Source: Planctomycetales bacterium (GTDB lineage: Bacteria > Planctomycetota > Phycisphaerae > SM23-33). Taken from it: a DNA stretch of 64,000 bases. Below, piece after piece: positions 10,543 to 57,098 of the stretch. Position 1 is the first letter of the stretch. Each line of letters starts with the position of its first letter. The notes beneath the pieces are model-generated. The model ran no database searches. It was given only the letters and a program-made list of their open reading frames with translations, and was not told the origin of the DNA. The DNA lies in contig JAUWNJ010000008.1 of assembly GCA_030612725.1 (NCBI GenBank), positions 1 through 64,000 on the forward strand, given 5' to 3'. Made by a program: the position numbers and the translations under genes.

Positions 10543-10549
10543 GGGAAAA

Positions 10550-10700
10550 AAGAAGAGGAAAAAGAAAAGGAATAGCGGGATTACAGGGATTACAGGATTT
10601 CAGGGATTTTAATTTTGCTAAAAGAAACAGAAGAAACCAAATCCCCATAATCCTGTAATCCCCAAAATCCCGCTATTCCTTTTCTTTTTCTTCTTCTTTC
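10550..10700. repeat. Long palindrome built of GGATTACAGGG words
   Basis: Two arms of about 62 bp (10550-10611 and 10639-10700) are imperfect inverted copies. Each has a purine-rich outer tract (GAAGAGGAAAAAGAAAAGG on the left), then GAATAGCGGGATT, then two or three copies of GGGATTACAGG-like words. The loop is 27 bp. It lies between two rightward genes and could form a very stable hairpin. No ORF. Confidence 0.8.
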
Positions 10701-20930: not shown

Positions 20931-21005
20931 CTAGCCGCGACCGGCAGGGAGCGGGTTTTTTGCCAACGTGCGATAAAAAACCCGCTCTCTACCGGTCGCG
21001 GCTAG
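20931..21005. terminator. Strong hairpin, probable terminator
   Basis: Arms of 31 bp (20931-20961 and 20975-21005) are inverted with two changes, both of which still allow G-U pairing in RNA. The inner ends are a T6/A6 pair and the outer stem is GC-rich (CTAGCCGCGACCGG). It lies 51 bp after the phosphoesterase stop. The inner A/T tract makes it an unusual intrinsic terminator, so it may equally be a palindromic repeat. Confidence 0.65.
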
Positions 21006-21028: not shown

Positions 21029-21105
21029 TTTTCTACCTTCTCCTGCTCTATTTTTCGGCTTTGCCGAAAACTCGGGGCGACTGTCCGAACTTCGAACCGT
21101 CGCCA
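21029..21105 (-). other. Possible decayed tRNA-Pro 3' end with flanking hairpin
   Basis: The segment CTCTATTTTTCGGCTTTGCC followed by CGGGGCGACTG resembles 22579-22617, where the same order leads into a clear tRNA-Pro 3' half. Here the match to the T arm breaks after GCGACTG, although TCGAACC is still visible. It may be an old, mutated copy of the attachment site or its terminator. The rest of 20880-21240 holds only the hairpin above and no gene. Confidence 0.35.
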
Positions 21106-22275: not shown

Positions 22276-22602
22276 TCTCTCCCCTTTCTCTCAAGCGCGA
22301 TCCGGTGTAATGGTACCCCGAGAATCGCAGAGCGTTAACACAAAGAACCGGATAAACAGCGTCAGCGGACGACCTGTGCCAACTCCGCATGCCGTCCGAA
22401 GACCAGAAGCATGCATGAATTGATTATACACCAATCCACCGAAATCAGCAAGCCTTTTCTGGACTGGAATGCCCGTTGACACTGTCTGAACGCGAGAATG
22501 ATGGGCCGCCATGGTGAGCGCCCCGGACGTGCGAAAGCCGTTTTTTCCTATCTACTCTCTATTTCCTACTGCTCACCCGCTCTATTTTTCGGATTCGCTG
22601 AA
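22276..22602. other. Intergenic, no gene seen
   Basis: 327 bp upstream of the PEP-CTERM gene. It should hold that gene's promoter; AGAAAGGGGAGAGAATG precedes the start on the minus strand. The last 25 bp (22581-22605) form a small hairpin, TTTTTCGG-attcgc-TGAAAAA, placed like a terminator for a tRNA read on the minus strand. Nothing else is supported. Confidence 0.5.
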
Positions 22603-22647
22603 AAATCGGGGCGACTGGATTTGAACCAGCGACTTCCTGCTCCCAAA
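22603..22647 (-). repeat. Attachment-site-like repeat: 3' half of tRNA-Pro(UGG), copy 1
   Basis: On the minus strand the 45 bp read TTTGGGAGCAGGAAGTC, then T arm GCTGG-TTCAAAT-CCAGT, then acceptor strand CGCCCCG plus A. TTTGGGA is an anticodon loop with UGG, so this is the part of a tRNA-Pro from anticodon loop to discriminator. No anticodon 5' strand, D arm or acceptor 5' strand occurs upstream, so the tRNA is incomplete. An identical 45-bp copy is at 31142-31186. Tyrosine recombinases commonly use exactly this part of tRNA genes. Confidence 0.8.
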
Positions 22648-22817
22648 TCACTTTCGGCGAATCATGACTTTCCGTAACTTCTGCTAATATCAGTATCTTA
22701 CGTACGGTAAACAACCAGGATTCGTTCACGCAAAGTCATGATGATTGTTCTTTTTACCACGCAGGGTTGCCAATGGCAATTGTTCCGTCGGATAGCGGGC
22801 AGGCGAGCCCGCAAGGT

Positions 22818-23048
22818 TCAATTGTTGAGCAACGAATACTGGTCGTTCCCCAGGTGGTTCGGCAAAGGTTGAAGGACAACCGCTGCTACATGCCCGTCGG
22901 CTAACACGACGTTGGCGTCATAGTCCACAGGATCATGCATCTGCATGTATTTAGCCCATGACATGTTAGAGTAATAAAAAAGCGTGCGATCCCCCGCCAC
23001 TACCACATTTGAGGAATACCGGATGTCTTCGACTCCCTGCTTCCACAA
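22818..23048 (-). pseudogene. Fragment of pseudopilin-like protein with H-x-DG ending
   Basis: 76 codons reading WKQGVEDIRYSSNVVVAGDR to ANVVLADGHVAAV, which resembles the C-terminal part of planctomycete DUF1559-type pseudopilin-like proteins, where a conserved H and DGHV end the domain. No N-terminal prepilin helix is present upstream, so this is a remnant. It lies directly inside the left attachment-like repeat. The rest of 22648-23117 shows no gene. Confidence 0.5.
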
Positions 23049-23117
23049 TACCGCAGTTGTAGGCCAACCGAAGTCCGGACAAGTTCATGAGTCATCAAGC
23101 AGGGCCGACTGGTATAA

Positions 23118-24284
23118 TCATGCGACACTTTTCTGCTGTGGGGTGTTTTGGTCTTTATAATTTGGAACTGCAACGCGTATGGGCTGTTTGACCCCCGTGC
23201 TTTCATCCCATCGCTGAAGGTGTTCCAAAATCGCGATTGTAACTTCCTGTCCATGCGTAACCAGCAGCCTGCCGTTTTCGGCCAGGACGTTCTGTTCGAG
23301 GACCATTCCGGTCGTCAGGTCTCCTACATTGACGGCCCATCTAGCATATTCCGGCATAGAGATGTTCAGACTCGCCAGCGCCTCGACAACAGTCGAATCG
23401 TAAGAGGTCTTATCCTGTCGCAGCATGTCGAGCGTCATGTCCGGCGGCATGCCATGGGAGAGTAACTGGTCGAAGTCCAGCGCCGTCTTCAATATCTGCC
23501 CGCCGAGTGTGATTTCATCCTGTTCGGCCAGGGGGGTATTCGGGCATGAGGCCGTCTGGAGCGCAATCATCTCCGCGACCCCCTTGAGACGCGGGATGTT
23601 GATGAGGAGTTTTCCGGCTGTCTGTGGATGGGAGTCGAAGCCCGATTGCTCGTCGGGCGAGAGTTCCTGTCCGGCAAAGAACTTATCAAGGACATTATCG
23701 GGCAGCGAGACACATCCCAGTTGCGACAGCATCGCCGCTATCTCGAATTGCCAGGAGTTCGGCAGGGAAAGTTGCTCGGTAATGTGCCCGACGTATCGCC
23801 GAATCCGGCTGGCCCGACCGAATGCCTTGGGCTTGATTAAGGACAAAATATCGACAAGGATTTTCACGCTCCCGTTGAGCGTCTCTTCAAGCAGTTGGCG
23901 CTCGGCGATTATTAATTGATATTGCTTGACGCCGGCGTCAATAGTGCTGATGAGAACTTCCTTCGGGCAGGGCTTGGTGAGGAAGCGGAAAATCTGACCT
24001 TCGTTGACGGCGTTAATGGCTGTGTCCTGGTCGGCGTTTCCGGTCAGCATCATGCGTACGCTGTCGGAGGCAATATCTTTGACTTTGGAAAGGAACTGGA
24101 CGCCGTCCATTCCGGGCATGCGCATATCGGCAAGTATCACGGAAAAGGGTCCTTTTTCGGCGATAAGGGTTAGTCCCTTTTCGCCTCCCTCGGCCGTCTC
24201 GACGTCAAAAACATCTCGCAGCGAGCGTCTGCACCCAGCCAGGAGGTTCGGATCGTCGTCCACAAGCAGGATTTTTTCAGACAT
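23118..24284 (-). CDS. Response regulator with degenerate HD-GYP-like domain
   Basis: 388 residues from ATG 24284, which overlaps the previous gene's stop by 8 bp. Receiver domain 1-120 with phosphoacceptor Asp53 (ILADMRMPG) and FLTKPC. Residues 140-300 align in pattern with HD-GYP phosphodiesterases, but the H-D-I-G-K signature reads S-Q-L-G-C and no H-H-E or GYP segment is present, so cyclic-di-GMP hydrolysis is unlikely. A short beta-rich C-domain (WAVNVGDLTTGMVL) follows. Last gene of the signalling operon; probably an output adaptor. Confidence 0.8.
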   Translation of the reverse strand: MSEKILLVDDDPNLLAGCRRSLRDVFDVETAEGGEKGLTLIAEKGPFSVILADMRMPGMDGVQFLSKVKDIASDSVRMMLTGNADQDTAINAVNEGQIFRFLTKPCPKEVLISTIDAGVKQYQLIIAERQLLEETLNGSVKILVDILSLIKPKAFGRASRIRRYVGHITEQLSLPNSWQFEIAAMLSQLGCVSLPDNVLDKFFAGQELSPDEQSGFDSHPQTAGKLLINIPRLKGVAEMIALQTASCPNTPLAEQDEITLGGQILKTALDFDQLLSHGMPPDMTLDMLRQDKTSYDSTVVEALASLNISMPEYARWAVNVGDLTTGMVLEQNVLAENGRLLVTHGQEVTIAILEHLQRWDESTGVKQPIRVAVPNYKDQNTPQQKSVA

Positions 24285-25470
24285 TTGCAGTCTCCTTCGT
24301 ATTTTCCAGGCAAATCTCCCGCCAGACGTCCAGGCGGTCAGCCAGGCCAAGCCAGGCCAGGTATTCCATATCGACGGGTCCGGCCCCGTCCACAGCGTCG
24401 GCTACGTGCACGGCTGTCAGGGCGGTGAATCCGTCGGTGTTTTGATTTTCAGAGGGGCAATGGTGATACGCCACTGCTTCAACGACTGGGTCGGAGAATG
24501 ACCAGATACCCAGCAGATACGCCCCCGCCTGGGCATGTGTTGCGCCGATAGCGCGATTTTCCGCCTCCAACGCCCCGACGCCTTCTTTGTCTTCCAGGTT
24601 CATCGCCAAACGGTAGTCGTCGGTAAATTGGTCGGCGAATATGATTTTTCCGATGTCGTGTAGCATTCCCGCCATGCAGGATGCGTTGACGGTCTTATTG
24701 TCGGCTTTGGCTTCCTGTGCGATTTTTCTGGCGTAATTGGCTACAGCAACGCTGTGTTTCCGCAGGGTTTCTATCTCGAATTCATCGGCTACGGTTACGT
24801 CGAGCGGCCAGAATATATTATTTGAAAGGACCAGCGGTTTGATAACGTCCATTCCCAGTGCCTCGACGGTTTCGGCGGGTCCTGATACACACCTCGGTGG
24901 CCCGAAGAAACTCGAATTGACCAACTGAAGTATTTTCCCGCTCATCCCGACGTCCATCGAGATGATTCTGGCGACGGATTGGATCGACGCTTCGGGCGGA
25001 GTGATCTCATCAAGCAGTTCGTCATACAGACGAGGCAGAGGCGAAACCGATTCAATGGCGGAGATGATGTCGGCTACCTTCTCATCGTTCAGGAGTTTTC
25101 GCATGGTTACAACCCGCCCCAGAACCGCTTTTAGTGTTTCCAGGCTGCAGGGTTTGGAGAGGTATTGATGCGTGGGACCTGCTGCGGCGAGAACGGATTC
25201 CCTGTCGGCCTGTCCCGACAGGACAATGCGAATCGTGTGCGGATGCTTCCGGCGTACGTTTTCGAGCAGTTCCACTCCGTCCATTCCGGGCATTCGGACG
25301 TCTGAGACGATAACGTCATGGTGTTTTTCATCGAGGCATTTCAGCGCTTCGATGCCGCCGTTGGCGAATGACATTTCCCATTCGCTGCGCATAGGTCTGA
25401 GCATTCGTCTCAACGCGCTTAGGATGTTGTCAACGTCATCGACAAAGAGTATTCGTATTTTGTCAGTCAT
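24277..25470 (-). CDS. Response regulator with HDOD domain
   Basis: 397 residues from ATG 25470; the longer frame to 25533 overlaps the CBS gene and is not needed. Receiver domain with Asp57 (VIVSDVRMPGMDG) and YLSKPC. Residues 140-340 form an HDOD domain: ISMDVGMSGKILQLVNSSFF is its characteristic start, and MLHDIGKIIF and YHHCP follow. HDOD proteins act in signalling without confirmed enzyme activity. It lies 22 bp after the CBS gene and overlaps the next regulator by 8 bp. Confidence 0.9.
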   Translation of the reverse strand: MTDKIRILFVDDVDNILSALRRMLRPMRSEWEMSFANGGIEALKCLDEKHHDVIVSDVRMPGMDGVELLENVRRKHPHTIRIVLSGQADRESVLAAAGPTHQYLSKPCSLETLKAVLGRVVTMRKLLNDEKVADIISAIESVSPLPRLYDELLDEITPPEASIQSVARIISMDVGMSGKILQLVNSSFFGPPRCVSGPAETVEALGMDVIKPLVLSNNIFWPLDVTVADEFEIETLRKHSVAVANYARKIAQEAKADNKTVNASCMAGMLHDIGKIIFADQFTDDYRLAMNLEDKEGVGALEAENRAIGATHAQAGAYLLGIWSFSDPVVEAVAYHHCPSENQNTDGFTALTAVHVADAVDGAGPVDMEYLAWLGLADRLDVWREICLENTKETANV

Positions 25471-25492
25471 GTGATATTTCCTGGCGATCAGG

Positions 25493-25966
25493 TTATCCGT
25501 CCATGTCCGGGAACTCGATGTCGATATCCTCATCTATTGTAAACTGTTGCTTCAACAGGCTCTTCACCGCGGCGAACTGGTAGGAGAGGATGTCCCGTGT
25601 GGAAAGCATTCCCACGAGCAGGCCGTCTTCGATGATCGGAAGGTGGCGTATATTGTGTTTCGCCATAATCTTCTGGGCTGCGGGGACCGAAGTCTGCGTG
25701 CTGATCGAGACGACGCCGTTTGTCATTATTTCTTTGACGAGCGTGGCGGCGGGTTCTTTGGCTTCGGCAAGCACCTTGTTGAGCATGTCCCGCTCGGTAA
25801 CCATCCCGACAGCCACGCCGAGTTCGTCCATGACAACGAGACTTCCGACGTTGTGGTACCGCAGTTTCTTGCTCGCCTGAAGCACGTTTGCATCGGCTTT
25901 GATGGAAAGGACTCCGTGCCCCTCCTGAATAATTGCTGTTATTGGTTTGGCGGTCGTATGCAACAT
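25493..25966 (-). CDS. Tandem CBS-domain protein
   Basis: 157 residues from ATG 25966. Two CBS domains: residues 15-70 (VGSLVVMDELGVAVGMVTER) and 80-135 (HNIRHLPIIEDGLLVGMLST). CBS pairs bind adenine nucleotides and report energy or nucleotide state. The C-terminus is acidic (IDEDIDIEF). It sits inside the signalling operon between the HD-GYP and HDOD regulators, so it may modulate their output; this is inference from position. Confidence 0.9.
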   Translation of the reverse strand: MLHTTAKPITAIIQEGHGVLSIKADANVLQASKKLRYHNVGSLVVMDELGVAVGMVTERDMLNKVLAEAKEPAATLVKEIMTNGVVSISTQTSVPAAQKIMAKHNIRHLPIIEDGLLVGMLSTRDILSYQFAAVKSLLKQQFTIDEDIDIEFPDMDG

Positions 25967-26016
25967 TGGCGATGTTCTCCCGGTGTTTGCGGTTAATTGA
26001 TTTATTCCTGCCTGTT

Positions 26017-27186
26017 TTATCGGGCTGCAACCAGTTCGGACTGAATTTCCTGCCTGCGAACAGTCATTTCCTCTTCGATCTCCGCCCGGATACGCTGAAA
26101 CTCATCTTGTGTTGCCTCAAATGCCTCATACACGACAGGGTCGAAGCAACTTGCCGACGCCTCGGACCGCATGATTTTCATGGCTTCGGCGTGTGAATAT
26201 GCCTGCTTGTAAGGTCGGTCCGACTGAAGCGCGTCGTACACGTCCACGATGCCGACAATCCTTGCCTCTAACGGGATGTCTTCGCCCGCCAGAGCATCGG
26301 GATATCCCGTACCGTCCCATCTTTCGTGGTGATGCATTGCAATGGAAGAGGCCATTGCCATGAACCCGTTTTCAAAACTGGTATGCCCTGATGGAACCTG
26401 TATATTTTGCCAGTCAAGGAAAGGCTTCATTCCCTTTGCTTCTTCAAGCAGGATATTTGCGCCGATTTTGCAATGGCATTGCATAACCTCTCGCTCTTGT
26501 GGTGTGAGCCTGCCCGGTTTGAGAAGGATGCTGTCGGAGATACCGATTTTGCCGATGTCGTGAAGCGGGCTGGTAAGGAATATCGCCTCGACGAAATCGC
26601 GGGACATTCCGATTTGCTCTGCGATGATACGACAGTAACATCCGACCCGGACAATATGCTCTCCGGTCTCCTCGTCGCGGAACTCGCCTGCCTTTGCCAA
26701 TCGCCAGATAATGTCCAACCTGGCCCACTTAAGGTCCCGCGTGCGGCGTTCGACTCTCTGCTCCAAATCCGCGTTCAATGCTTTGAGTTCATCCTGGTAA
26801 GCCTTCAGACGGAGCACGCTATTAAGCCTGGCCGACAAGTCTTCCAGATGAATCGGTTTTGTCAGCAGGTCTGTCGCCCCAAGGTCCAGGGCCTTCCGTT
26901 TGAGGTCGCGATCGTCCGTACCGGTCAGCACAATAACCGGAATGTCCCGTGTCCGCTGGTCCTGATGCAATGCTTCGAGCAGGTCGAATCCGTTCATTCC
27001 GGGCATCTGGACGTCTGTAACAATAGCGTCAAACCTCGTCGTTCGAGCTTCGGCCAGAGCATTGAACGGATCCTGGAGAAAAACCATCTCCCAATTCCGG
27101 TAATTCCTGTGAAGCCCGCGCTTCAAACCTTCCAGGAAATTGGACTCGTCATCCACAAACAGGATTCGCTTGTTATTATGCGGCAT
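26017..27186 (-). CDS. RpfG-type response regulator, HD-GYP cyclic-di-GMP phosphodiesterase
   Basis: 389 residues from ATG 27186, overlapping the kinase gene by 11 bp. Receiver with Asp58 (AIVTDVQMPGMNG) and LLTKPIH. A coiled coil (LNADLEQRVERRTRDLKWAR) links to an HD-GYP domain (about 165-345) with EHIVRVG, SPLHDIGKIGI, HHHERWDGTGYP and IVDVYDAL, all residues expected for an active enzyme. It should hydrolyse cyclic-di-GMP when phosphorylated, most likely by the adjacent kinase. Confidence 0.93.
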   Translation of the reverse strand: MPHNNKRILFVDDESNFLEGLKRGLHRNYRNWEMVFLQDPFNALAEARTTRFDAIVTDVQMPGMNGFDLLEALHQDQRTRDIPVIVLTGTDDRDLKRKALDLGATDLLTKPIHLEDLSARLNSVLRLKAYQDELKALNADLEQRVERRTRDLKWARLDIIWRLAKAGEFRDEETGEHIVRVGCYCRIIAEQIGMSRDFVEAIFLTSPLHDIGKIGISDSILLKPGRLTPQEREVMQCHCKIGANILLEEAKGMKPFLDWQNIQVPSGHTSFENGFMAMASSIAMHHHERWDGTGYPDALAGEDIPLEARIVGIVDVYDALQSDRPYKQAYSHAEAMKIMRSEASASCFDPVVYEAFEATQDEFQRIRAEIEEEMTVRRQEIQSELVAAR

Positions 27187-29692
27187 TGGCGGCTTCCCTT
27201 ATCTTGTTATCTTCGGCCATTTCCGGCGGTCTAATCGGCAGGCGGATAATAAAAGTTGTTCCCTCTCCGGCCTGTGTCTCGAAGTCAATCGAACCGCTGT
27301 GTTTCATTACGACGACATCGCGGGCGATGGAGAGGCCCTGACCGGTGCCTTTACCGGCCTCTTTCGTGGTAAAGAACAGGTCGAAGACTTTTGAAGCGAT
27401 TTCCTCGGGTATTCCGCCGCCGGAGTCGCCGATGCGCATCTCGACCCATTCGCCGTCCAGTTTCGTTTCGACCGTAATGGCGCCTCTCTGCTCCGGGGTT
27501 TCGCCGAGGAGTTCCTGAATCGCCTGGGCTGCGTTCATAATCAGGTTGAGGATCACCTGGTTCAGTTCGCCCGGAAGGCAGTACACCGGCGGAAGGTTCT
27601 CATCGAGGTTCATCGTCAGGTCCGAAACATATTTCCACTCATTCCGGCAGACGGTAACGGTGTTTTCGACTAACTTGTTCAGGTCCGTGGCTGTCTTGGC
27701 TTCGGTGCCCGGATGCGAGAACGATTTCATCGCCCGCACGATTCGCGTTACCCGTCCGATACCTTCAAGGGACTGATCGATCGCTCGCGGGATTTCCTCC
27801 ATGAGATACTCCACATCCGCTGCCTCGAATGCTTCCCGAAGGGGTTCGACGACTTCCGGCGGGACGTTCTTTTGCTCAGCCGACGCCAGAACCCCCCTGC
27901 ATTTTTCGAGCACATCTTTCAGGTCGCCGAAGGATTCGTGGAGGAATCGCGTGTTGTCGCCGACATACTGGGTGGGCGTGTTGATTTCGTGGGCGATACC
28001 GGCTGCAAGTTGACCGATGGATTCGAGTTTCTGAGCCTGGTTGAGTTGCTTTTCCAGGCTTCGTCGTTCACTGATGTCTGCCCCCGAAATAAGAACGCCC
28101 GTAATCTTTCCGGAAGGTTCCACGACCCGATTAATCTTCATGGCCAGGATATGTTCGGAACCGTCCGAGGCTTTGAACGTCAACGCATCAATGCGGGTCT
28201 CGACGCCTTTTTCGCTGCAGAGGTCGATCTGCCTGGCTACTTCCTCCCACTCCCAGTCGATTTCCAGATCTCGAAAAGCCTTCCCCACGGCATTTTCGGC
28301 ATCAATTCCGAATGTTTTTTCCGCTGGGTGGTTCCACAGTGTTACCAGTCCCTTACGGTCCAGTCCTATCATAATCGATGAAATGGAACCGAGCAGCGAC
28401 TCGACCTCGGCCCTGGCGGCGCGAAGTTCTTCCTCCGCTTCCTTGTGATCGGTAATATCGCGGACGACCTCTACGACACTGTCAACGGTTCCTTCGGCGT
28501 TAACCAGGGAAACGGCGACTACTTCATACTGTCTGCCATCGGGAGTCGTTACTTCCGCGCCTTCGGTATTACCACTGGCAACGGCCTTTGACATGGGACA
28601 GGCATCGCAAGGTCTGTCGCGTCCCATGTATCCCTCATAGCACACCTTACCCGTGAGATCGCCGAATCTCTCCTCCCGCGTTCGATTTTGAAACAATATC
28701 TTGTAATCCGTTCCCACAATGTCAATGCCGATTCCCATATCGGCCAGTCCGGTCATAAGAACCTGCAACTTGTCCCTTTCCGTCCTTAGAACCTCTTCGG
28801 CCCGCTTGCGCTCGGTGATTTCGCTGAGAAGTTCTTCGTTGGCCTTTATCAGGTCTGCGGTGCGTTTCTCCACAAGTTGTGTAAGGTGATTTCGGTGTTC
28901 GGCGATTTCCTCCTTCGCCCGCTCGCGTTCTTCGACGATACTTCCTATTTGACGAATTGTGAGAACGCAGATACTGATCCCGCCAAGTCCGAAAATTGCG
29001 ATAATGACATAACGGACCAACGCAAAAAGACGAATTGACTCGGCTTGTTCCCGTTCAAGATGCCAGATTTCCAGATTGGTGTCATAGAGTATCCTGTTGG
29101 CGCTCTCGCGGGAACGCAGGAGGAACGCATGGGCCTGTTTCTGGAGCAGGTCGATTTGCCTCCTGGAGGCGACCCGCTCATTGTCGTTTGAGGCGCTGAG
29201 ATTCCGGTTGACAGCCTTGACGAGGTTCAAGGATGCACACTTGACATCAAGGATTCTCGGAGTTAACTCGATGACCTCGATAACGTATCCGCTGTCTTTG
29301 TCAACGCTGAACGACATGTGCTCCCTGATTTCGTTCACGTCGTCAAAATTAGCGGGCAAAATGTCTTCATAGTCCCCTCCGTTTCGCAGGATGCTCAACG
29401 CCGACTCGACATCCCCAATAGAAGACGTTATCTCTTTATCGAGTGCTCCGACATCCCTGCGGTCAGTCGTTGTTGCAAGTTTGCCGAAGCCCAATTCTAT
29501 TGAGAGCAGTTTCCTGATGATAACTTTCCCGATGGTTCGTCGGGCGCGTTGATTGCGAATCGCCGATTCCCGGCTTCGTGAAAGGCGATCCATGAATCCC
29601 TCCGACGCGATGAAGACGACAAATGTTGCGACGAAGACGACCATCAAAAGGAATATCTTTCGCTGTATCGGCTCTTTCAGGATACCCTTCAT
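27176..29692 (-). CDS. Membrane PAS histidine kinase
   Basis: 838 residues. A first transmembrane helix (about 12-30), a periplasmic helical region, and a second helix (about 225-250) lead to a coiled coil ([16 protein letters not shown]). Two PAS domains follow (about 305-420 and 430-550). The first contains [18 protein letters not shown], a cysteine-rich signature seen in some PAS domains. The H-box is [17 protein letters not shown] and the ATPase part has [19 protein letters not shown] and GTGQGLSIA. No receiver is attached. The lipoprotein gene upstream may supply its ligand, and three regulators downstream are candidate targets. Confidence 0.92.
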
Positions 29693-29713
29693 TGTGAGTC
29701 ATTCCTCCGTAAG

Positions 29714-30511
29714 TTACTTTACGTCATACAAACCGTATTTATTGAACAGTTCACGCCCCTTGTCGGAAGCAGCGTATTCCATGAACTTACGGGCGATTTC
29801 CTGATGCGATGACATCTTGAGCAGGCCTATAGCAAGCCTCTTCTTTGTTGCGAATTCCTCTCCAATCGGCAGCACGTCAATATAGGACTTGTTATCAGGC
29901 CAAGTCGAAGTCGCGTACCAGTTAATGACAAGATCGGCCTGTTTGTTGATCAGGGCGAGGCTCATGTCTTTTGAGTCTGTTGTTATGACGCGGGCGTTAT
30001 CCTGGACTTCCTGGAAGATGCCTTTTTTATCGAGAATTTTTTTTGTTTCCCGCCCTATACTGCCGCTGCTCGGATTGCAAATAACAACGTAGTATTCCTT
30101 TGATGCGAGATTGTTGAGGTCGGCGGTAATCCTTTTCGGATTCCCTTTCTGCACCATCATCGCAGCCTTGTTGTATCCGACGTGGACAGTTTCAGTAACG
30201 AGACCTTCGTCGAGACAAGTTTTGACGTAGGAATCCGACCCCGGAAGATACAGATCGCCGATTTTATTGATCCTGATCGACTTGAGAAGATTACCGGAGC
30301 CGCCTTTCGTAATGATGATTTTGCAGTTTTCCTGCTCTTCGATGATTCTTGCGATGTCGGACATCGGTTTTATCATCGTGATACCGCAATAGATAAGCAG
30401 TTCTTTCTTCTTTTCTTCCTTCTTCGTTTGCCCACAACCGCTCACAAACGCCGAAACTACCGCTAGCAGAATGACCAGAACATGTATCCGGCAGTGTCTT
30501 ATCCATTCCAT
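29714..30511 (-). CDS. Substrate-binding lipoprotein (ModA/PstS-like fold)
   Basis: 265 residues from ATG 30511, preceded by GCAGGGAGAACATC; the longer frame to 30730 is not supported. A lipoprotein signal ends at VSAFVSGCG (Cys at about 26). The mature part matches periplasmic anion-binding proteins: LLIYCGITMIKPMSDIA, ITKGGSGNLLKSI, PSSGSIGRETKKIL and EFATKKRLAIG. No permease or ATPase gene is near, so it probably acts as a sensor partner of the kinase 21 bp downstream rather than in transport. Ligand unknown (molybdate, tungstate or phosphate are family options). Confidence 0.85.
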   Translation of the reverse strand: MEWIRHCRIHVLVILLAVVSAFVSGCGQTKKEEKKKELLIYCGITMIKPMSDIARIIEEQENCKIIITKGGSGNLLKSIRINKIGDLYLPGSDSYVKTCLDEGLVTETVHVGYNKAAMMVQKGNPKRITADLNNLASKEYYVVICNPSSGSIGRETKKILDKKGIFQEVQDNARVITTDSKDMSLALINKQADLVINWYATSTWPDNKSYIDVLPIGEEFATKKRLAIGLLKMSSHQEIARKFMEYAASDKGRELFNKYGLYDVK

Positions 30512-31141
30512 GATGTTCTCCCTGCTAACAATTATCATCCTACTGCTGCGCACAATTGCCTTGCTCGTATGCGATTCGAACACTTTTGCGGCGCTGCGGT
30601 GCGCATACGCCGGCGCATAAGCAGCCTCGGCTGAGTCCTGTGAATGGATGCAATTACCCCCGACCTTTTTCCGTATCGGACGGTCCCAAAGGCGACTTGA
30701 GTACCGCGCGCAGGAAAAAACCGAAAACAACAGTAAAATCTTCAGCGGACGCTTCCGGGGGAGTCGCGAAAAATTAGCCCGGATTTTCGGCTTGCTGATT
30801 CGGCGGCGATAAGCCCCTCCCCGCGACCTTCTATAAAGAATCGCCAGTGTGTCGGGACGGAATCTTCGCAGTGATTCCTGGCCGTCGGAAGCGGTTCATC
30901 CTTCTATCGGTGGCTCAACAGACCGAACACGGCATCGGAAGCCGCGGTTGTTGCGTTGGTCCCATCATGTTTTGACATCCTTGTCTGATTGCCTGTGATG
31001 CGTATGATTATAACATGGCTGTCAAGTGAGTTGGGCAACAGGCCCTAATTGCCGGTGGTATTATAAGTGTAGTGCCACAATTGCCGACGGAAATGACGAG
31101 GGAATGACCGCTTGTAAGTTTTTGACTCACAAGCGGATAAG
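30512..31141. other. Intergenic region left of the prophage attachment repeat
   Basis: 630 bp without a convincing gene. It should hold the promoter of the signalling operon, read leftward. A run with several short stems lies at 30600-30730 upstream of the lipoprotein, but I cannot match it to a riboswitch class. A small hairpin (CTTGT-aagtttttgactc-ACAAG, 31111-31133) lies just left of the attachment repeat. Confidence 0.45.
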
Positions 31142-31186
31142 AAATCGGGGCGACTGGATTTGAACCAGCGACTTCCTGCTCCCAAA
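31142..31186 (-). repeat. Attachment-site-like repeat: 3' half of tRNA-Pro(UGG), copy 2
   Basis: Identical over 45 bp to 22603-22647 and in the same orientation: anticodon loop TTTGGGA, variable loop, T arm and acceptor strand on the minus strand. The sequence at higher coordinates does not restore the tRNA 5' half, so it is phage-derived. It lies 188 bp from the end of the integrase gene, the usual arrangement of an att site at the integrase end of a prophage. Confidence 0.85.
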
Positions 31187-31374
31187 GGATTCCCACTCCA
31201 AAATGCAAGGTGATGCCAGCACACTGTTTATATCGTAAGTCCTTATTTCCACAGCGACTTGCGTTTTTCTCTGCGTTCGCCAGTGTTCGCCTACGACCGG
31301 AAAAAAACACAAGTGTTATAAGGCGCGCTATAAAACGGCCCGAAAACGGCCTCATATCCTTGCTTGAAATTTTC

Positions 31375-31971
31375 TCAAATTGACAGAATCGCATCGTCAA
31401 TTTCCTCCTCCCTGAAGCCAAGGTACGAAACCGTCGAGTTGATATTCCGGTGTCCGAGGGCACGCTGCGTCTTGATCAGATCGCGGTCCAGCGCCGTGTA
31501 CACCCGGTCGGCAAACGTCTTTCGCATCGAGTGCGTCCCCGTCTGGCCGGCGACGCCGGCGGCGTGGAAAGCATCCTGGAGGATACGATACGCCTGGACA
31601 TAACTGATAGAACGGTTGGCACCCTTGCGGGACCGGAAGACGAAGGTCTCCGGGCCCACGTCGCTGACATCGCGCCGAAGCTCGGAGATCCACTCGGCTA
31701 AAACCTTCTGTGCGACCGGATGCAATATGACCGTGCGGCCTTCGATCTTCTTCTTCATGTGCCGCCTGGCCACCGTCACACGCTCGGCGATCCGCCCGCC
31801 GATCTCCACGTCGCAGAGTTGCAGGCTGAGCAGTTCGGAAATCCGGAAGCCTGTCTTGACGCCGAGGGTGAACATCGCCCGATCGCGGGCTGCGTAACGG
31901 CCGTTGAAGCAATCCGGCATCCGGCTCACTTCGGCCTTCGATAATGGGCGGCAACCTTTCAAGTCGAACAT
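31375..31971 (-). CDS. Tyrosine recombinase (phage integrase), catalytic domain only
   Basis: 198 residues from ATG 31971. Catalytic residues are complete: Arg43 (TGFRISELL), lysines 73-75 in the beta hairpin, His147 and Arg150 (HSMRKTF), His174 (ALGHRNINST) and nucleophile Tyr183. The N-terminal core-binding (SAM-like) domain of normal integrases is absent, so the protein is about half the usual length. Its 3' end points to the attachment repeat at 31142-31186, the presumed target in tRNA-Pro. The gap 31187-31374 shows no gene. Confidence 0.9.
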   Translation of the reverse strand: MFDLKGCRPLSKAEVSRMPDCFNGRYAARDRAMFTLGVKTGFRISELLSLQLCDVEIGGRIAERVTVARRHMKKKIEGRTVILHPVAQKVLAEWISELRRDVSDVGPETFVFRSRKGANRSISYVQAYRILQDAFHAAGVAGQTGTHSMRKTFADRVYTALDRDLIKTQRALGHRNINSTVSYLGFREEEIDDAILSI

Positions 31972-40684: not shown

Positions 40685-40692
40685 TTCAATAG

Positions 40693-40790
40693 GGCATAGG
40701 GTGTAGGGCGTAGGGTATAGGGGAAAAATAAAATCTGTTTCTGCTGTTCCCTACGCCCTATGCCCTACTCCCTAATCCCTAATCATAATC
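40693..40790. repeat. AGGGCATAGGG-word palindrome
   Basis: AGGGCATAGGGTGTAGGGCG words face inverted CCCTACGCCCTATGCCC words across a short A/T-rich centre. Same design as the AGTCCC elements with different words. Between the tail terminator-like and tail tube genes. Confidence 0.75.
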
Positions 40791-54961: not shown

Positions 54962-55687
54962 CTATGCACCGGCCAAAGCGGGCCGGCGGAACTGCCCCGC
55001 CCTCTCAATCCTGGGTGGATTGCGGGTCTCTCTTGACCCCTCGCCCGCGTCAATCTTCCAAATCAAATCGTCGTGCTTCGGATAAATCTGCGCCCACTCG
55101 ACGGAACTCTCGCGCAGCAGCCGTTTTCGCGTCGCGTGGTTGCACAGGAACCTTACGTACCGGAACTGCCGGCCCCAGACCTTCCGAAGCCCAAGCGAGG
55201 TCCAGAGGCTTTTGCGGCGTGTGCCGTATCGCGTAACCAGCAGTCGCGGATGCACCGGCTCACCGTCGGCAGTCAGGTAAATCTCGGTAGTGATGTACCC
55301 GCCATAAAGCCAGTTAGACCCCTGATAGACATAACCGGGCTTGCCGCGAATCCCGTCCGCCCAGGTGAACAGCAGTACACGCTCAGGCTGGTTCGCCCTG
55401 AACCACCGAGCGCAGCCGGCGAGAAATTCGCTCTCGGTATTTCGTGGTAATTCATCGCGGCAGCACAGACGGCACAGCTCCCAGTAATCGCCCGTGTCCA
55501 GGCTGGGAAAAAGTTTCTGAATAGTGTGCCGCGGCCTCGTGCCCCAGCCCCAGATAGCAGCGCCGCCAAGACCGTGTTCGTCGTAGAAGCCCAAGCTCAC
55601 TATGCAGTGCGGCGGGAAGATGTTGCTGTAGTGCCACCGCAGGCAGAGCCGCTTGGCCTCATTTGTGTCGATGCGGTCAACCTGCAC
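54962..55687 (-). CDS. Mom-like adenine modification protein (GNAT-related)
   Basis: 241 residues from GTG 55687: AGGAGG lies 7 nt upstream, whereas a TTG at 55693 would be too close. The sequence follows the Mom family: LCLRWHYSN, ELCRLCCRDELPRNTESE, LFTWADGIRGKPGYVYQGSN and FRYVRFLC. Phage Mu Mom converts adenines of phage DNA to a hypermodified form that blocks host restriction. It overlaps by 11 bp and follows the ParB-methyltransferase gene, forming a DNA-protection operon. Chemistry in this phage is not known. Confidence 0.75.
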   Translation of the reverse strand: MQVDRIDTNEAKRLCLRWHYSNIFPPHCIVSLGFYDEHGLGGAAIWGWGTRPRHTIQKLFPSLDTGDYWELCRLCCRDELPRNTESEFLAGCARWFRANQPERVLLFTWADGIRGKPGYVYQGSNWLYGGYITTEIYLTADGEPVHPRLLVTRYGTRRKSLWTSLGLRKVWGRQFRYVRFLCNHATRKRLLRESSVEWAQIYPKHDDLIWKIDAGEGSRETRNPPRIERAGQFRRPALAGA

Positions 55688-57098
55688 GGGCAACCCTCCT
55701 GGCTACGCTTCGCTTCGCCGTGGCAAGCCCGGCTCGGCGTTTTGGGGATTTCGTGGAGGCCTGCACGAGTTGGGCCTTCTTGCCGGTGAACTCCTCCCAT
55801 CGCTTCACGATGACATCACAATATAATGTGTCGAGTTCCATCAGGAACGCGCGTCGCTGAGTCTGCTCGGCGGCAATCATCGTCGAGCCGGACCCGCCGA
55901 AGAGGTCCAGGACGTTTTCACCCGGACGCGAGGAGTACTGCATGGGCCGCACGGCCAGGTCCACCGGCTTCTCGGTCAGGTGGACCATGCTCTGCGGGTT
56001 GATCTTCTTGATGCTCCAGACGTCCGTGGCGTTCGCCGGGCCGTAATACTTGTGGGCCGCTCCCTCGCGCCAGCCATAGAAACACCACTCGTGATTGCCC
56101 ATGAAATCCTTCCGCGTCAGGACCGGGTGCTCCTTGACCCAGATAACCATCTGGCTGAAGTACAACTCGGCTTCCTTCAGGGCGTTGGGGTAGTTCCAGA
56201 TGTTGCTGTAGCCGCCCCAGATGTAGAACCCCCGACCGGGCTCCAGCACGCGGCGGATATTGCCGAACCACGCACGCAGGAGAGAGGCGAATTCCTCGTC
56301 GCTTACAAAGTCGTTTGCCAGCGGGCGGTCCTTGGGACGCATCTTCTTGGTCGTGGCGCGGGTCTTGCCGCGAAGCTTGGCGTCCATCCCCTGCTGTCCG
56401 GTGAACTTCTTCGCGGCCTTGGCCGTAACGACGGCGTTGTTCGACCTGGGCGCAACCTTGACGTTGTACGGCGGGTCTGTGTTGACAAGGTGTATCTTCG
56501 CACCGTCCAGGAGCCGGTCCACGTCGGCAACACTTCCGCTGTCGCCGCAGAGCAGCCGGTGTTCGCCCAGGACGTATAGATCGCCCGGCTGGGTGATAGC
56601 CTCATCCGGCGGCGCGGGCACTTCATCCGGATCGGTCAGGCCGTCGGTGATGTCCGCAGTCAGCAGGTGGGCCAGTTCGTCGGCCGAGAAGCCAAACTCG
56701 TCCATGTCAACGTCGGCGTCCTTGAGCTGCTGCAACTGCGCGAGGAGAACCTGCTCATCCCACTCGCTCAATTCGCCCGTTCGATTGTCAGCCAGGGCAA
56801 ACGCCCGGACCTTCGCAGCCTTCAGGTTGGTCCGGACAACGGCCACATGTGTCCAGCCGATCTGCTTGGCGGCCAAGAGTACGCCATTGCCGGCCACGGC
56901 GATACCGCCGGCGGCGACGATGATGGGTTTCTGCTGGCCGAAACGACGCAGACTCTCGGCGATTGCATCGAGGTTTTGCTCCGGATGACGACGTGCGTTT
57001 TCCGGGTCAGGTTTGATTTTCGTAATGGGCGTGGCAAGTGCCCGAAGAGCCGGGGCGATGTAACTCAAGTCCGTGGGGGACTGTTCCGATTTTGACAT
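55677..57098 (-). CDS. ParB-like domain fused to adenine DNA methyltransferase
   Basis: 473 residues. Residues 20-110 form a ParB/Srx-like domain (IKPDPENARRHPEQNLDAIA, GNGVLLAAKQIGW). Residues 170-430 are a methyltransferase with NTDPPYNVK (Asp208-Tyr211, D-P-P-Y type for N6-adenine or N4-cytosine) ahead of VLDLFGGSGSTMIAA (SAM-binding, 397-411), the order of the beta class. KARE-like HLTEKPVDL is present. Together with the Mom-like gene it is expected to modify phage DNA. C-terminal tail is basic. Confidence 0.9.
   Translation of the reverse strand: MSKSEQSPTDLSYIAPALRALATPITKIKPDPENARRHPEQNLDAIAESLRRFGQQKPIIVAAGGIAVAGNGVLLAAKQIGWTHVAVVRTNLKAAKVRAFALADNRTGELSEWDEQVLLAQLQQLKDADVDMDEFGFSADELAHLLTADITDGLTDPDEVPAPPDEAITQPGDLYVLGEHRLLCGDSGSVADVDRLLDGAKIHLVNTDPPYNVKVAPRSNNAVVTAKAAKKFTGQQGMDAKLRGKTRATTKKMRPKDRPLANDFVSDEEFASLLRAWFGNIRRVLEPGRGFYIWGGYSNIWNYPNALKEAELYFSQMVIWVKEHPVLTRKDFMGNHEWCFYGWREGAAHKYYGPANATDVWSIKKINPQSMVHLTEKPVDLAVRPMQYSSRPGENVLDLFGGSGSTMIAAEQTQRRAFLMELDTLYCDVIVKRWEEFTGKKAQLVQASTKSPKRRAGLATAKRSVARRVARAG

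Follow-up and report, generated by a model that had tools for sequence, protein, structure and literature searches.

This locus raises the question of how DNA without a single tRNA gene came to carry the same tRNA half twice. The window, by which we mean the whole stretch of 64,000 nucleotides that was analyzed, corresponds to positions 1-64000 of a 124,759-bp contig from a Planctomycetales bacterium, and ARAGORN finds zero tRNAs in it. A sequence-only reading, made without database searches, had claimed that identical 45-bp 3' halves of tRNA-Pro(UGG) lie 8.5 kb apart, each running on the minus strand from the anticodon loop to the acceptor end without a 5' half. It had proposed serial integration into one tRNA-Pro gene, with the intact gene beyond the right edge, and had suggested a comparison with related genomes.

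Two displaced tRNA-Pro(UGG) halves and the intact gene

The two halves are exactly as claimed. Positions 22603-22647 and 31142-31186 are identical over exactly 45 bp. Read on the minus strand, each copy opens with the first base of the anticodon loop (TTTGGGA) and closes 3 bp past the discriminator, and no tRNA 5' half lies beside either of these scars. Their 42-mer core is found at only two sites in the 3.16-Mb genome, with up to three mismatches allowed; chance is ruled out for the 45-bp exact repeat. The outermost scar (22603-22647) is a displaced native 3' half that has kept its ancestral downstream flank, 22566-22650 matching the tRNA-Pro locus of the same-genus genome G003 at 93%. Comparison of the copies identifies the other scar (31142-31186) as a second displaced half, which forms the boundary between an 8.5-kb element (element 1) and a prophage.

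The intact tRNA-Pro gene predicted beyond the right edge is present. ARAGORN places it on the minus strand at contig positions 71729-71802, 7.7 kb past the window and beside a 430-aa tyrosine integrase, and it is the only tRNA-Pro(UGG) gene found in the assembly, the other tRNA-Pro genes found being CGG and GGG. In its 3' half, 4 of 42 positions do not match either scar. In the sense of the tRNA, one substitution is in the variable loop, two replace a T-A by a G-C pair in the T-stem, and one turns a G-T into a G-C pair in the same stem. All four are compatible with T-stem pairing, the predicted fold is the same, and ARAGORN accepts both versions. The sequence-only reading had expected the same 3' half at the right end of the prophage, and to the letter this is not what is there; the four substitutions are what a phage with a foreign attP would leave, and genomes of the same genus carry the scar version.

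Among the intact tRNA-Pro(UGG) genes of this genus, that of G002 has exactly the scar version and that of G003 has it with one mismatch. When the sequence is joined at 22647|71771, the rebuilt tRNA is 1 base away from that of G002 and 2 from that of G003, as compared with 5 and 6 for the present tRNA. The joined outer flanks, a reconstructed empty site, form one unbroken 199-bp match to G003 across the junction. Because the same-genus genomes carry the scar version and the rebuilt tRNA and flanks match theirs, the scars are most simply taken as the ancestral version, and the living tRNA would most simply be a chimera of a host 5' half and a phage-borne 3' half. The nearest cellular match found for the present 3' half, with 1 mismatch in 40 bases, is in a genome of the same family (G027), and in the attP of a phage contig (L273) there is a tRNA-Pro 3' half whose T-stem is that of the present tRNA.

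The flanks beside the tRNA diverge by about 10-14% from G002 and G003. Against this divergence, the two scars agree at all 45 bp, so that the insertions of element 1 and of the phage both look recent. On the left, synteny with relatives is shown over only ~40 bp beside the tRNA, and the tRNA-Pro(CGG) locus also carries related flank sequence. Gene synteny of the left flank was uninformative, the sole strong ortholog (in G002) lying at a contig end. Also in G002 (L081 2940-3130), the intact tRNA-Pro(UGG) is followed by another tRNA-Pro that is degenerate and changed in its anticodon arm, next to the ancestral upstream flank.

The prophage, its recombinases and a palindrome near the tRNA

The prophage extends over ~40.5 kb (31187-71727), the part within the window being 31187-64000. 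Between 31.2 and 71.6 kb, it encodes a tape measure, head decoration, head protease, portal and large terminase, as well as a Mom-like protein, a ParB-methyltransferase and a topoisomerase-like protein. At 54962-57098, the Mom-like DNA modification protein adjoins the fusion of a ParB domain and a DNA methyltransferase, which suggests that the phage DNA is modified.

Two proteins of the prophage, of 430 and 198 aa, are tyrosine recombinases, and their genes flank attP. The shorter (31375-31971, minus strand), with a catalytic domain only (Pfam PF00589 Phage_integrase, 7e-21; phrog_216), is encoded 188 bp from the right scar at the left end of the prophage and has full-length phage homologs of similar size, the best with 59% identity. 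The right scar had been described as abutting the prophage integrase, and a recombinase gene is indeed next to it, but the integrase of the site is very probably the 430-aa protein. We rejected the 198-aa protein for this role, as it sits beside the scar and not the tRNA, and as the elements with scars of the same type in two relatives, G052 (of the same class) and G041, have the long integrase, which was the recombinase searched for there.

The gene for the 430-aa integrase (contig 70312-71604, minus strand) starts 124 bp from the tRNA and has the same orientation. Homologs adjoin tRNA genes of many isotypes in relatives, and the best 80, from a scan of one genome per species, are going by record titles all planctomycetal except for one metagenome-assembled genome. 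Exact displaced halves of 42 and 43 bp are found in G052 (tRNA-Pro) and G041 (tRNA-Arg), with their start at the anticodon loop or a single base ahead of it. The 430-aa protein is therefore very probably the integrase of the tRNA-Pro site, and we infer that it catalyzed the integration. In a tree of these integrases, much of which is poorly supported, those at tRNA-Pro genes do not form one group. The 430-aa integrase has a Gln where aligned relatives have the His of the LGH motif, which makes its present activity uncertain. The same genome encodes a second integrase of this family, with 38% identity (G000:C57:58392-59390), in the same orientation and close behind a tRNA-Ala/tRNA-Ile pair.

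Between the tRNA and the integrase gene lies a palindrome (contig 71632-71654) made of an inverted pair of the 11-mer TTATAGCGCGC, which has only three occurrences in the 124,759-bp contig. The distance from this palindrome is 74 bp to the tRNA and 28 bp to the integrase start codon. At the far end of the prophage, 137 bp inside the core, there is a copy of the putative arm site, the 13-mer TTTTATAGCGCGC (31323-31335, minus strand), for which 0.07 matches with at most one mismatch would be expected in the window. G052 and G041 have the same att layout with other sequences. Ten phage contigs of this family were inspected, and in them the palindrome comes after a 3' half resembling that of a tRNA; the family's phage contigs carry foreign tRNA 3' halves in attP, a tRNA-Pro among them. 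An exact search of viral contigs with either 40-bp core gave no match; the divergent tRNA-Pro attP of L273 came from a protein search.

The palindrome recurs in relatives at a nearly constant distance from the tRNA. Of 70 non-identical loci in which an integrase of this family adjoins a tRNA, 42 contain a perfect palindrome (arms of at least 8, loop of at most 6) centered 82-88.5 nt from the tRNA end (center about 85.5 nt); the count covers perfect palindromes only, which the remaining 28 lack. Outside that position, just 8 palindromes occur within the 140 nt. The regularity first emerged from some sixteen loci, part of which are also in the set of 70, and the palindrome criterion was fixed afterwards. 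At 55 control tRNAs without an integrase of this kind behind them, no palindrome occupies that position; a cruder first control, with a slightly different position rule and following integrases unchecked, gave 2 of 15 tRNAs. The sequence is highly variable, with 36 distinct palindromes in the 39 integrated loci that have enough flank. With one mismatch allowed, the arm recurs 120-300 bp upstream, on the other side of the core, in 6 of the 11 loci that lack an intact tRNA, as compared with 2 of the 39 integrated loci, in which this upstream DNA is the host's.

In the prophage KplE1, attL overlaps the int promoter (PMC2951348). By analogy with this system, the palindrome may be an arm site and perhaps also a control element of int. 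The geometry fits that of KplE1-type sites: tRNA and int have the same orientation (here the minus strand, with a 124-bp gap), attL is between them, and a putative arm site is found at the start of int (here the palindrome, 28 bp from the start codon). In contrast to those sites, the palindrome here is long and differs in sequence in nearly every relative, at a nearly constant distance from the tRNA. The chances seem to us evenly balanced that we are looking at a large Planctomycetota family of tRNA-targeting integrases, in which a palindrome of varying sequence at ~85.5 nt from the tRNA, with a copy across the core, would serve as paired arm site and int operator that co-evolves with the integrase.

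Element 1 and the older relative at 21.05 kb

Element 1 (22648-31141) encodes, according to Pfam, response regulators with HD-GYP/HDOD domains, a CBS protein, a histidine kinase and a solute-binding protein. Its GC content is 52.8%, that of the flanks about 55%, and that of the prophage 57%. It has no integrase or recognizable remnant of one, a search of 1-31.3 kb giving chance-level matches only. An ortholog of the solute-binding gene, the only gene of element 1 so compared, is absent from the three same-genus genomes (one of them only 77% complete), and the histidine kinase has no match in the genome contig collection. The two ends share sequence no better than chance, with 301 of 2000 random pairs doing equally well; the palindrome is absent from the right end, and no arm sites common to element 1 and the prophage were found beyond chance.

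As in a cis-mobilizable element (CIME), which has att sites at both ends and no integrase, element 1 is bounded by cores at 22.6 and 31.1 kb; in the Islander comparison, it has a tRNA fragment without an integrase. CIMEs move by accretion with an adjacent element, and no mobilized state of element 1 was observed. It has the appearance of an island that lacks an integrase and occupies a site used more than once, and the two scars are what suggests that it integrated or moved in its own right.

A shorter, mutated relative of the scars had been suspected at 21.05 kb, and it is real, 21039-21083 matching 22573-22617 at 87%. This older degenerate relative (21039-21101, minus strand) shares with that region the final 12 nt of the tRNA and the downstream flank, and these are joined to the genus-specific 30-mer TCGGGGCGACTGTCCGAACTTCGAACCGTC (21072-21101), an imperfect palindrome that begins like the tRNA-Pro 3' end. 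The 30-mer is found once in this genome, once in G002 and three times in G003 (2 mismatches in one copy), and in none of the other relatives searched beyond this genus. Every copy is located 3' of a tRNA-Pro gene (copies at L079 1515, 2478 and 3221, and at L140 3149). The relative at 21.05 kb fits older events at the same hotspot.

The three copies in G003 stand between individual genes or pairs of small extent (Fic, hypothetical, PIN pair). Close by in the window, at 20931-21005, there is an inverted repeat with 31-nt arms that are 94% complementary; similar sequence next to the tRNA-Pro/ATP synthase junction in G002 and G003 means that it is probably a dispersed repeat. Our Rfam scan returned sub-threshold matches only, mostly on hairpins. 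Strong hairpins at 167-255, 10549-10698 and 40687-40785, with sub-threshold matches to microRNA families, are probably long inverted repeats.

Probable order of the insertions and comparison with known systems

We consider it quite probable that the tRNA-Pro(UGG) attachment site was used at least twice, by the 8.5-kb element and then by the phage, and that the phage swapped the 3' half of the gene. Element 1 (22648-31141) and, later, a temperate phage (31187-71727) would have recombined with the anticodon loop of the same tRNA-Pro gene, each insertion displacing the resident 3' half outward to leave the scars at 22.6 and 31.1 kb, and each restoring the gene from the 3' half that came in on the attP of the element. 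For the phage, this attP would have brought a functional tRNA-Pro 3' half from another host. Catalysis would be by the 430-aa integrase, probably using the palindromic arm site ~86 nt from the tRNA, at the start of its own gene, and probably also the second copy ~140 bp inside the opposite end. The serial integration first proposed is supported in this form by the scars, the intact gene and the rebuilt site, and has to be qualified in three respects: the living 3' half has four substitutions, the integrase of the site is very probably the 430-aa one at the tRNA end, and element 1 lacks an integrase. The genomes at hand included none with element 1 alone and no empty site from the same species.

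The order of events might have been the reverse, with the phage entering first and element 1 later inserting into the displaced half-site at its far end. The resulting sequence would be identical, with native outer cores and the phage's core on the tRNA side. We regard this order as unlikely, because a displaced half without the 5' anticodon stem is a poorer target than an intact gene, and no half-site insertion was seen among the relatives examined. The absence of an integrase from element 1 could alternatively mean that 22648-71727 entered as a single composite, the 31.1-kb core being internal and dating from an earlier fusion; composite islands are known (PMC8978831). This is distinctly unlikely, since that core is the host (scar) version and not the phage's, and the phage arm sites bracket 31.1-71.7 kb exactly.

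The other two alternatives concern the tRNA gene and the assembly. With only four substitutions between the two versions, the 3' half could have mutated in place, the attP of the phage having had the scar version. Yet all four changes fall on the 3' side of the crossover, the 5' half departs from that in each same-genus genome by no more than 1 base, one change swaps a paired T-A for G-C, and phage attPs with variant halves exist, which together make mutation in place highly improbable. Finally, the genome is a metagenome bin of 65 contigs, and repeats favor false joins, so that a misassembly at the 45-bp repeat might have brought unrelated pieces together. We find this scarcely credible given the matching arm sites at both ends of 31.1-71.7 kb, the outer flanks that join into a G003-like site, and the host-like composition on both sides.

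Successive insertion of element 1 and the phage has precedents. Islander includes 125 tandems of two or more islands (PMC4383910), and islands of its type are built much as here: an intact tRNA, a displaced fragment on its 3' side in the same orientation, a tyrosine integrase between them and crossover in the anticodon loop. At our locus, the intact gene and both fragments are on the minus strand, the fragments on the 3' side; the interval contains the 430-aa and 198-aa Phage_integrase proteins, and phage structural genes lie inside. Compared with that type, the restored 3' half here differs from the displaced one, making the donor half distinguishable, and a palindrome at a fixed distance marks attL. 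The Dehalococcoides ssrA islands (PMC3146451) are likewise serial islands at one RNA gene, some without integration modules, and a repeat of the 3' end of that gene delimits each of them. Unlike there, a prophage is the partner here, crossover is in a tRNA anticodon loop and not in a tmRNA T-loop, and the enzyme is a tyrosine integrase and not a Ccr-like serine recombinase.

The locus is thus a well-preserved case of ordinary tRNA-targeted tandem integration, which is a known process; the fixed-distance palindrome is unreported as far as we found in titles, abstracts and selected passages of the literature. For a phylum that has received little study, the locus cleanly records what appears to be serial integration at a single tRNA gene, and a fossil of the ancestral half next to the phage-replaced half makes the direction of the swap directly readable. 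If the palindrome rule is true, it would allow the integrase behind each insertion, and the ends of the elements, to be told from sequence, and the arm-site specificity and self-regulation of this integrase family would become testable.
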